A DNA stretch of 36,852 nt, from the NCBI GenBank assembly GCA_023248875.1, contig JAHFDT010000005.1, positions 13,170 to 50,021 of the forward strand, read 5' to 3'. Within the stretch, counting starts at the first letter, position 1; each line of letters opens with the position of its first letter. Under the pieces are notes generated by a model that was not told where the DNA came from, did not search any database, and worked only from the letters and a program-made list of their open reading frames with translations. Made by a program: the position numbers and the translations under genes. This DNA is from Myxococcales bacterium (GTDB taxonomy: Bacteria > Myxococcota_A > Polyangia > Palsa-1104 > SHYY01). Shown here one piece after another: positions 16,414-36,852 of the stretch.

Positions 16414-17073
16414 ATGAGAACATTGCTTATGGCAGGAGCTCTTCTGTTTGCAGGACGGGCCGGGGCCAGCGACCAGACGGGCGTCTATGCCTACGTTTCG
16501 AGTGTGGTGTTCGAACCGAACGCGAGCGATGTTTCGACCGCGACCAAGGCCAAGATCACCGGCTGGTTCCGCATCGCGAATGGGGCGCTCGGCCAAGGCG
16601 ATAAGTACACCGACTCGGCGATGGGCTACCTCTACTACAGTTGCCCGACGGGGAAGGAGTCGGTGTGCCGCTCGGAGTGGACCGATATCAAGTACGCAGC
16701 AGGATCGAAGGACTGCAAGACCTGGGGCTCGCGCACTTTCTACACGACGACGGGCAACGGAACCGTACGAACGGATGCGAACGCCTCCAGCCCCGACCCG
16801 TACCCTGTCAACCAGGGGGTCGCCACCGCCAACCCGAACTTCAACTACTGCCCTGTGATCCCTGACGGGGGCGTCGAGCCCAAGGTCGATATGGCGCAAG
16901 CAGGGGCGGTCGATATGGCGAAGGCGGCGCCTGTGGACATGGCTCAAACGCCAGTCAATACCCCGAAGAGTGGCTGCTCGGCCGCGCTCGGCACGACCCA
17001 TACCGGGATGGGGGCGATGGTGGTGCTCGGCCTCTTGGCGGTGGTCACGCAGCACCGTCGTCGCCGTAGTTAA
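16414..17073 (+). CDS. Secreted protein with C-terminal MYXO-CTERM-like sorting tail
   Basis: MRTLLMAGALLFAGRAGA signal peptide; linker VDMAQAGAVDMAKAAPVDMAQ; C-terminal SGCSAALG + TM GMGAMVVLGLLAVV + RRRRS. Confidence 0.65.
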   Translation: MRTLLMAGALLFAGRAGASDQTGVYAYVSSVVFEPNASDVSTATKAKITGWFRIANGALGQGDKYTDSAMGYLYYSCPTGKESVCRSEWTDIKYAAGSKDCKTWGSRTFYTTTGNGTVRTDANASSPDPYPVNQGVATANPNFNYCPVIPDGGVEPKVDMAQAGAVDMAKAAPVDMAQTPVNTPKSGCSAALGTTHTGMGAMVVLGLLAVVTQHRRRRS

Positions 17074-17393
17074 CACTACTGCGTCACTTTCTCCCATCTC
17101 TGTCGCTGCTGCGGACCCTGGCCGCTTCCTCGCTCCTCATACGCCCTCTCGTTGATCACTCGCGTCGTCGGGCCTACTGCGGGCCCAGCCCGCTGCGTTG
17201 TTCCTCGGTCAGCTACCTACAGGTAGCTTCCCTCGTCACGCCTTGCGGGCTGGGCTCCTCGCTACGGCCGGACTCGCTCCGGATCAACGGGAGGGCGTAT
17301 CAGTCGGTTACCACCAGTAGCCTTCTTCGTCGCTCGTCGCGACCGGGGATCCTCGCGACGCAACGGCTCGGTCCGAAAGTGACGTAGTGGTGT
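17073..17393. repeat. 321-bp structured inverted-repeat element (copy A), TA-flanked, with about 19-bp imperfect terminal inverted repeats
   Basis: ACACTACTGCGTCACTTTC at the left end vs GAAAGTGACGTAGTGGTGT at the right end (reverse complement ACACCACTACGTCACTTTC); TA at 17071-17072 and 17394-17395; second copy at 36718. Confidence 0.8.
17139..17300. repeat. Nested inner hairpin element inside copy A
   Basis: ATACGCCCTCTCGTTGATC (17139-17157) pairs with GATCAACGGGAGGGCGTAT (17282-17300), 18/19; internal GCCCAGCCCGC/GCGGGCTGGGC and apex AGCTACCT-AC-AGGTAGCT; absent from the 36718 copy. Confidence 0.75.
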
Positions 17394-18553
17394 TAAACCG
17401 GTGGCTCGGCTCACCTCTCTTTCGTGCTTCGCGGTGGGATTCGCTGCTGGTGGGAGCGGGCCTCTTGCAAGGAGGGGTGCTCCTGCTCGCGGCGATCCAT
17501 GTTCGCCTGGGACCGAGTGCGGCGCCGGTGGTGCTGCTTGGTGCAGTGGGCCTATGGTGGAACTGCAATACCGTCTCCCATATCCATCTTCACACGCCGA
17601 TTTTTCGATCACGCTGGCAAAGCCGTGCTTTCGCGCTCTACCTGACCGCGCTGCTCGGTGTGCCGCAGACGATCTGGCGAGAGCGGCATCTGGCACACCA
17701 TGCCGGGCGAGAGGCGAGCCGTCGCCCGCTCGGCTTTGGTATCACGCTGGAAATAGTTCTCGTCGCAGCGGTGTGGGGCCTCTTGTTGCTGCGGGCGCCC
17801 AGCTTTTTCTTCGCGGTCTACCTTCCCGCCTACCTGCTGGGGCTGCTGCTGTGTCAGGCTCAGGGCCATTTTGAGCACCTCGGACAGCTGGGCGGTATCA
17901 GCCACTATGGCGCACTTTATAATGTGTTCTGGTTCAACGATGGCTTTCATGCAGAACACCACCAGCATCTCGGCGAGCATTGGACCCGTCTGCCTGCGCG
18001 ACGGCTGGCAGTGGCGTCGGTGAGTCGTTTTTCGCCACTTCTACGGTGGCTCGAGCCACTGCATCCGCTGGAATGGCTCGAATGGTGGGCGCTCGGCTGG
18101 CCGAGGCTACAGCGCTTTATGCTGGAGACGCACGAGCGAGCCTTTCGCCGCCTCTTGCCGGCCCTCGGAGATCGGCCGATCGCTCGCATCTGCATCGTTG
18201 GTGGAGGCCTTTTTCCCAGAACGGCGCTGGTGCTGCGAACGATCTATCCCACCGCGGATCTGGTGCTGCTCGACGCCGAGGAAGGGCACCTCGACCGGGC
18301 TCGCGACTATCTGCGCGAAAACGGCCATCCGTTCGCGCAGCTGGAATTTCGCTGCGGACGATTTGCCCCCGGAGCATGCTGCGATGCGGATCTGGTGGTG
18401 GTGCCGCTCGGCTTCTTCGGTGATCGGAAGGCGCTCTATCGCCAAGGCTCAGGGCCACCGATCATTGTGCACGATTGGCTGTGGCACAGGTGCGGACGGG
18501 CGAGTACGACCGTTTCGCTGCTGCTGCTCAAGCGCCTGAACCTCCTGAGATGA
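17387..18553 (+). CDS. Membrane fatty acid desaturase-family N-terminal domain fused to Rossmann/SAM-MTase (nicotianamine-synthase-like) C-terminal domain
   Basis: His boxes HIHLHTP, HLAHH, HAEHHQH; C-terminal ARICIVGGGLFPRTALVLRTIYPTADLVLLDAEEGHLDRARDYL. Confidence 0.72.
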   Translation: MVLNRWLGSPLFRASRWDSLLVGAGLLQGGVLLLAAIHVRLGPSAAPVVLLGAVGLWWNCNTVSHIHLHTPIFRSRWQSRAFALYLTALLGVPQTIWRERHLAHHAGREASRRPLGFGITLEIVLVAAVWGLLLLRAPSFFFAVYLPAYLLGLLLCQAQGHFEHLGQLGGISHYGALYNVFWFNDGFHAEHHQHLGEHWTRLPARRLAVASVSRFSPLLRWLEPLHPLEWLEWWALGWPRLQRFMLETHERAFRRLLPALGDRPIARICIVGGGLFPRTALVLRTIYPTADLVLLDAEEGHLDRARDYLRENGHPFAQLEFRCGRFAPGACCDADLVVVPLGFFGDRKALYRQGSGPPIIVHDWLWHRCGRASTTVSLLLLKRLNLLR

Positions 18554-35249: not shown

Positions 35250-35558
35250 ATGTTCCATGTAGCTTATGAATTCAAAGTGAAGGCAGGTTGTGAGGCGCCG
35301 TTTATTGAGGCTTGGCGTGCAGTGACCTTGGCTTTCCGACGCTACCGGGGCGCGCTGGGCTCCCGTTTGCATCGGGCGGAGGATGGCACCTATGTCGCCT
35401 ATGCACAGTGGCCGTCCGAGGAATCCTACGGACAGGCGAGCGTGCTCCCGGAAGAGGTCGTGGTGGCACAGCGGCAATTGCGCGAGAGTTGTGATGAGAT
35501 CATTACTTGGAAGAAGATGTCGGTAGTCGACGATCTACTCGTACAGGAGAGTGCGTGA
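35250..35558 (+). CDS. Antibiotic biosynthesis monooxygenase (ABM)-domain dimeric alpha/beta-barrel protein
   Basis: [60 protein letters not shown]. Confidence 0.75.
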
Positions 35559-36718
35559 TGCGCGATGTGGCGATTGTGGAGGGCGTTCGAACGCCGTTTG
35601 GGCGAGCGCTCAAAGGATCACTCAAGGACACGCGGCCCGATACCTTGGCGGCACGGGTGATCCGCGAAGCGGTGGCGCGCGCCAAGATCGATCCAGCAAC
35701 GGTCGAGGATGTGGTGCTCGGCTGCGCGATGCCGGAGGGGGAGCAGGGGCTCAACATCGCGCGGGTGGCGGCGCTGGCTGCCGGGCTGCCGGTGGAGACG
35801 CCGGCGATGACGATCAATCGCTTTTGCTCCTCGGGGCTGCAGTCGATGGTCAATATCGGCGATCGCATCGCCGTCGGAGCGATCGAGGTGGGCGTTGCCG
35901 GCGGTGTCGAATCGATGTCGATGATTCCCATGACCGGTAACAAACCGTCGCTCAATCCGCAGCTCGTGGAGGAGCGGCCGGAGATCTTTACGCCGATGGG
36001 CGTGACCGCAGAAAATGTGGCGCGCCGTTTCGAAATTTCGCGTGCGGCGCAGGATGAGTTTGCGCTACGATCGCATTTGCTCACGGTGGCGGCCCAAGCT
36101 GCGGGTAGGTTTGATGCCGAGATACTGGCGATCGAAACCACGCTCCTCGAGGGCACTGCGTCGCGCCCGGTGAGCCTCAAGCGCGACGAGCTACCCCGCG
36201 CCGATACCACTTTGGAAAAGCTCGCGCAGCTTAGGCCCTCCTTCGATCCCACCGGGACGGTTACGGCGGGTAATTCGTCGCCACTGACCGACGGCGCGGC
36301 TGCGGTGGTGCTGATGAGTGCTGAGAGTGCACGTGCTATGGGTGCGAAGCCGCTCGGTTACTTGCGCCATTTCGCAGTCGCGGGCGTGCCGCCCGACATC
36401 ATGGGCATCGGCCCGGTGCCAGCCGTTCGCAAAGTTCTGGCGCGCGCGGGAATGAAGATCGAGCAGATCGATCTGTTCGAACTGAACGAAGCGTTCGCGG
36501 CTCAATCGCTCTATTGCATCCGAGAGCTGGGACTCGCTTCCGAGAAGGTGAATGTTAACGGCGGCGCCATCGCGATCGGCCATCCACTAGGCGTCTCGGG
36601 CACTCGGCTGGCCCTGACGATCTTGCACGAACTCCGTCGGCGCGGCGACAAGTTTGGCATCGTGACCATGTGCATTGGCGGCGGTATGGGGGCAGCCGCG
36701 ATCCTTGAAGCGGCCTAG
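35558..36718 (+). CDS. fadA: Acetyl-CoA acyltransferase (thiolase)
   Basis: [81 protein letters not shown] overlap. Confidence 0.93.
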
Positions 36719-36852
36719 CACTACTGCGTCACTTTCTCCCATCTCCATCGCTGCTGCGGGCCCCGTCCGCTTCCTCGCTCCTCGGTCGGTTACGACCAGT
36801 AGCCTTCCTCGTCGCTCGTCGCGACCGGGTCTCCTCGTGACGCAACGGCTCG
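36718..36852. repeat. Structured inverted-repeat element copy B (truncated by window end)
   Basis: GCACTACTGCGTCACTTTCTCCCATCTCCATCGCTGCTGCGGGCC... closely matches 17073-17138 then 17301-17370, lacking the inner module. Confidence 0.85.

Follow-up and report, generated by a model that had tools for sequence, protein, structure and literature searches.

What kind of genetic entity is a short, strongly folding, non-coding repeat that carries a second such repeat inside it, and how could it have arisen? The question is raised by positions 17070-17396 of a 36,852-nt stretch of DNA from a Myxococcales bacterium (the whole stretch that was analyzed, here called the window). A reading of this stretch from its sequence alone had claimed a structured repeat under selection for its structure, with a diverged sibling nested in it. 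The analysis below follows these elements from their boundaries to the core that they share, and from the core to the enzymes that may move them.

Nested elements and their targets

Two nested short non-coding elements occupy 17070-17396, family B lying within family A. The outer element with both copies of its target site duplication (TSD), TTAA at 17070-17073 and 17393-17396, spans 17070..17396 as an unstranded feature, and its interrupted body, 17074-17392, is bounded by a left terminal inverted repeat on the plus strand, CACTACTGCGTCACTTTC (17074..17091), and a right one on the minus strand (17375..17392). The inner element, likewise unstranded, covers 17137..17302 with both TCA copies (17137-17139 and 17300-17302), and its body of 160 bp (17140-17299) lies between the plus-strand repeat TACGCCCTCTCGTTGAT (17140..17156) and a minus-strand counterpart (17283..17299). 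Family A ends in CACTACTGCGTCAC with TTAA duplicated, and family B in TACGCCCTCC with TCA duplicated. Both predicted pairs of inverted repeats were recovered, each with 91% complementarity (outer, 17070-17091 / 17375-17396; inner, 17136-17157 / 17282-17303), and folding is far better than that of shuffled sequences (z = -10.6 for a 331-nt stretch and -9.2 for the inner 162 nt, no shuffle being equally good in either case), which confirms the structured nested repeat. Removal of the insert and one TCA from family A leaves 156 bp, the length of uninterrupted A copies. This clean insertion with its own TSD, together with stand-alone copies of both families, bears out the nesting of a diverged sibling in a family member.

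A second family A copy lies at 36715..36852 (unstranded; TSD CTAG at 36715-36718, body from 36719). It lacks the insert, as had been read, but it is incomplete, with approximately 134 of 156 bp, and the contig (C275) ends there. In the whole genome, family A is represented by 11 copies and one end fragment, and family B by 4 copies, three of which stand alone at other loci with the duplications TAA, TGA or TTA. The cores of A and B align with a local score of 66, whereas 2,000 dinucleotide shuffles average 18 and never exceed 31, and the score is still 62 after removal of the terminal 20 nt; the likeness of inner and outer cores is therefore well above the shuffled background. The sibling relation thus holds for the core but not for the terminal repeats or the TSD types (YTAR, 4 bp, versus TNA, 3 bp), and because these are unrelated, two different transposases probably moved the two families.

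Each of the two window copies is inserted at a stop codon contained in its target. The TAA at 17071..17073 (plus strand), within the TTAA target copy, closes the open reading frame (ORF) 16414-17073, and the TAG at 36716..36718 (plus strand), within the CTAG copy, closes a full-length thiolase ORF, 35507-36718, whose domains are complete. Among the copies of the same genome, ORFs of 150 codons or more end at 36% of the TAA or TAG triplets at element junctions, versus 9% of the remaining TAA or TAG triplets of those flanks (Fisher p ~2e-10, the rows being not fully independent), an enrichment to which frames truncated by insertion may contribute. TA-containing targets are concentrated in stop codons because the genome is G+C-rich. 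The stop codon is restored by the target duplication, and insertion of this kind is a simple way to do little harm.

Structure of the hairpin core

The element core, ~90-120 nt in length, folds as a long imperfect hairpin. In the window, the conserved hairpin core of family B is found at 17174..17266 on the plus strand (model R1, 101.8 bits), with its tandem GA mismatches carried by the minus strand, and that of the second A copy at 36751..36842 on the plus strand (92.7 bits). The core of the outer element is split by B into a left half at 17105..17136 and a right half at 17303..17360, both on the plus strand and both placed by comparison with uninterrupted A copies; the right half also falls in a partial model match at 17268-17360 (33.3 bits).

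Selection on the structure, as proposed in the sequence-only reading, is supported by an alignment of 15 diverse cores made with MAFFT, in which structure was ignored. From this alignment RNAalifold derived a hairpin in which 19 of the 22 pairs covary, and in a slightly extended structure both sides have changed in 21 of 24 pairs. Paired cells of the 24-pair structure amount to 93.1% across the 15 cores, versus 74.8% after shuffling (0/500), pairing drops to about half in every slid version of the structure, and the covariation in larger core sets fitted to the model agrees. On the window plus strand, the consensus stem reads GC-TC-C-TC-GG-TC-stem-loop-TC-CC-TC-G-TC-GC. Its three TC/TC oppositions are highly conserved mismatches, and the intervening pairs swap C-G for G-C. 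Seen from the opposite strand, these oppositions are tandem GA/AG mismatches, which are stable in RNA as well as DNA. Covariation strongly suggests that the folded core has a selected role. Templated correction from one palindrome arm to the other could contribute to this pattern, but the conserved TC/TC mismatches speak against it as the only cause; because such correction would erase them, selection acting on a folded single strand explains the pattern better.

The nature of that strand bears on another explanation, namely transcription of the core into a structured RNA that serves the cell or itself (such as a sponge, a processing signal, or a transcription attenuator at gene ends), for which the transposon ends are a mere vehicle. 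Strong covariation with conserved unpaired columns, the location of elements directly after stop codons, and a group II intron inserted beside the apical hairpin of one copy are all in keeping with such a role. A single RNA strand, however, should favor G-U, whereas in the core G-T mispairs are roughly as common as A-C ones (59 and 72 of 1,930 cells), so that structure at the DNA level is at least as likely as RNA. The stem, moreover, is not followed by a U run, and an Rfam search, at the gathering score and also at E up to 5, returned no family for the core. An RNA function appears rather unlikely. Acido-Lenti-1, an RNA family with reported closeness to group II introns, was considered as the RNA family of the core and rejected when the Rfam search gave no match.

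The intron mentioned above (RF02003, 69.9 bits) lies directly after the apical hairpin of a single element (L065 ~1571-2440, in G066 C176). It has no evident reverse transcriptase and is on the GA strand, as expected of hairpin-targeting introns; no further group II introns were found within cores.

Distribution, ends and candidate transposases

Family C surfaced through the core that it shares with A and B, and a search with C yielded a fourth family, D, and then more; homologous elements are also carried by relatives of the same class. A covariance model, which had been suggested as a check on the sequence-only reading, was built from the core and detects 74 cores in the genome of origin at E < 0.001, a minimum. 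With 11 A copies, 4 B copies and at least 74 core-bearing elements in one genome, the notion that only the window copies exist is false. In the class Polyangia, 85 of 241 genomes contain model matches; for a thinner sample of the phylum, scored against a stricter threshold, the count was 13 of 141. Among the matches listed in a pattern scan of named genomes are Myxococcota, many Acidobacteriota (Vicinamibacterales) and Verrucomicrobiota, and also Nitrospirota, Nitrospinota and Gemmatimonadota, most of these loci being confirmed by the covariance model. Many core-bearing records are metagenome bins, single ones of which may be mis-binned, and the breadth does not depend on any one of them. Plasmids gave no match to a family B query, nor did phages to a family C query, and of 5 pattern hits in viral contigs only L426 was confirmed by the model. 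The family suspected from the window is therefore real, but its size was underestimated: 20 or more types of terminal repeat surround one core, and the phyla concerned are several.

Several unusual arrangements were observed during these searches. In Acidobacteriota, cores stand head to tail at ~94-106 bp spacing with the usual ends absent (L267 6502-6688; L268 616-815), and short forms of ~106 nt, whose left side resembles (C)TA-G(G)TTTTC, occur in L253, L298, L240 and L237, possibly representing an older or differently mobilized core. In L046 and L047, the left half of family C is joined to the same foreign sequence (CAGTTCCCACTGGCCTGCGG...) at two loci, a junction that may be another insertion or a chimera.

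Contigs end in or beside elements at position 36852 of the window (C275) and in C270, C175 and C23, so draft genomes undercount them. Frequent contig ends inside elements, the window included, are also what would be expected if the elements were chance palindromes or assembly artefacts. That reading has next to no probability and is excluded by independent copies, which occur at many loci with distinct flanks and TSDs and in independent public genomes, with fold z-scores near -10.

The elements show the hallmarks of miniature inverted-repeat transposable elements (MITEs), that is, terminal inverted repeats, direct TSDs, several dispersed copies and no transposase gene. Total length is 156-164 bp in nearly all types, apart from a few 178-bp members. 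Direct duplications, TTAA/TTAA, CTAA/CTAA and TCA/TCA among them, fall into three length classes: 4 bp, YTAR, in type A and some others; 3 bp, TNA, in B, C, D, H and others; and 2 bp, TA, in E, F, P and others. Among DDE transposases, different duplication lengths imply different enzymes, to which the 2-, 3- and 4-bp duplications across the types accordingly point. Between types, the terminal repeats are 0.43 identical, versus 0.39 when shuffled, while the cores average 0.62, and pairs of cores with unrelated ends reach identities of up to ~85-90%.

These numbers bear on the proposal that the elements are ordinary MITEs descended from one drifting ancestor, whose ends co-evolved with one transposase lineage and whose middle parts are similar since the families are young. 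MITEs with terminal repeats, 50-500 bp in length, are a known class (PMC10969869), and the types D/H/T, F/M and P/U are indeed related among themselves, and some of the variety thus reflects gradual divergence. A single lineage is nevertheless hard to reconcile with duplications of 2, 3 or 4 bp, which suggest different enzymes, or with ends that resemble shuffled ends between types around cores still 62% identical. The core, being common to several phyla, is also older than the ends. A common ancestor of this ordinary kind is accordingly considered improbable, and exchange of ends would be the simplest reading of unrelated ends around similar cores.

A candidate source of family A ends is present in a relative, G010, which belongs to the same order but another family. 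It carries an insertion sequence (IS) of ~1.48 kb (L220) with a 407-codon reading frame of the IS701 family (PF13546, E 8e-64; NF033540, 403 bits), with ends CACTACTGCGTCAACC / CACTACTACGTCG and the flanks TTAA/TTAG. At its left end, the first 13 bases are identical to those of family A (terminal repeat CACTACTGCGTCA..), and the IS701 locus gave no match to the family A core. The IS701 family has the end consensus ---YACT-Y--YR and a duplication of exactly 4 bp (PMC2266710); the family A end CACTACTGCGTCA matches this consensus at every specified position, as the left repeat of the window copy also does, and the family A TSD is likewise 4 bp. Other relatives contain IS5-family elements whose ends are similar to those of types V and E (L227 and L225), a weaker case than that of IS701, the second end of the type E-like element (L225) not being found.

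Subgroups of IS5 duplicate TNA, 3 bp, and the family B duplications TCA, TAA, TGA and TTA follow this pattern. No IS with family B ends was present in the genome of origin or in the fetched IS loci, and B is for this reason not filed as IS5-derived. In the same draft genome, no autonomous partner for A, B, D or H was identified: profile searches gave 3 matches to PF01609, 1 to PF13546 and 0 to PF13340, none of them a partner, and a scan for type D/H ends at IS spacing gave only short-element spacing or single ends. This draft comprises 304 contigs at 88% completeness, so it may lack some IS copies. The search for an autonomous transposase with the same terminal repeats, which the sequence-only reading had suggested, yielded a candidate for A in a relative and none in the draft itself. 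Judged from ends and duplications, DDE transposases of several IS families would move the elements in trans, a reading that appears well supported for A and is supported by the TSD for the other types. The mover of A would be of the IS701 type, and that of B a TNA-duplicating enzyme, IS5-like by its TSD.

A different kind of mover, a Y1 tyrosine transposase, is invoked if the core belongs with single-strand DNA elements such as REP or IS200/IS605 and the terminal repeats are secondary. The ~106-nt core-only forms of Acidobacteriota, which lack such ends, would suit this idea. However, elements with terminal repeats have direct target duplications, and among 30 Y1_Tnp loci from core-bearing genomes only one has a strong core match, which lies ~1 kb beyond the limits of its Y1 element; Y1 transposases as movers were rejected for want of any association with the core in these loci, and the idea as a whole is highly improbable. 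Separately, G045 has 34 Y1_Tnp matches and an element of ~1.36 kb with CTAG and AGTCCGACCCCGTA-type ends and a 272-codon Y1_Tnp-like frame (e.g., L398 1145-2499), six aligned copies of which are 86-93% identical and show no link to the core.

Proposed origin and comparison with known systems

Taken together, the elements are probably MITE-like and non-autonomous, with a conserved folded core capped by short ends borrowed from insertion sequences. At the window locus, a family A element would have inserted first, into a TTAA at a gene's stop codon, and a B element later, into a TCA near the apex of the A hairpin. Selection may act on the folded single strand of the core, whose most likely benefit is that the element transposes well or is well tolerated as a substrate; the core would then be a cis element aiding transposition or tolerance. 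Now and then it may gain new ends by recombination, perhaps aided by nestings such as that of B in A, in which similar cores come to lie within two sets of ends, a possible substrate for recombination. A bolder version, offered tentatively, is that the hairpin core is an independent genetic entity, an ancient structured nucleic-acid module under selection in its folded single-stranded form, which might persist across phyla by taking the ends of active insertion sequences, as one parasite of many unrelated transposases. The elements open two questions to testing, namely how a non-coding element benefits from having a structured core, and by what route transposon families exchange their terminal repeats. 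In addition, they may account for many contig breaks in drafts, and genome annotation of Myxococcota, Acidobacteriota and Verrucomicrobiota would gain a large family that is apparently undescribed. No description of the core family, which is widespread, was found in the open-access literature.

Among known systems, REP/RAYT and BIME repeats (PMC2817692, PMC3733652) are similarly intergenic, palindromic and present in many copies, but the present elements are much longer and have direct target duplications; no Y1 transposase gene flanked by the repeats, the mark of REP/RAYT, and no link to Y1 transposases were found among the 30 Y1_Tnp loci. Family A resembles the IS701 family in end consensus and 4-bp duplication (PMC2266710) and differs in having no transposase, its core being absent from the G010 IS. 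Bacterial MITEs, which have been treated as decayed derivatives of IS or transposons, share with the present elements their short, non-coding nature, terminal inverted repeats, TSDs, many copies and strong predicted folding (PMC10969869). Unlike the MITEs described there, one structured core is found here within many unrelated end types and with differing duplication lengths. The closest description found, likened by description only, is that of the coral CMITEs, animal elements linked to piggyBac-like transposons, in which differing terminal repeats surround an internal region more conserved than the ends (PMC2872659); relative to the part of that account available, a covarying hairpin and several duplication lengths are seen only in the present elements. 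The usual picture of a MITE would here be reversed, with the inside conserved and the ends probably exchanged.
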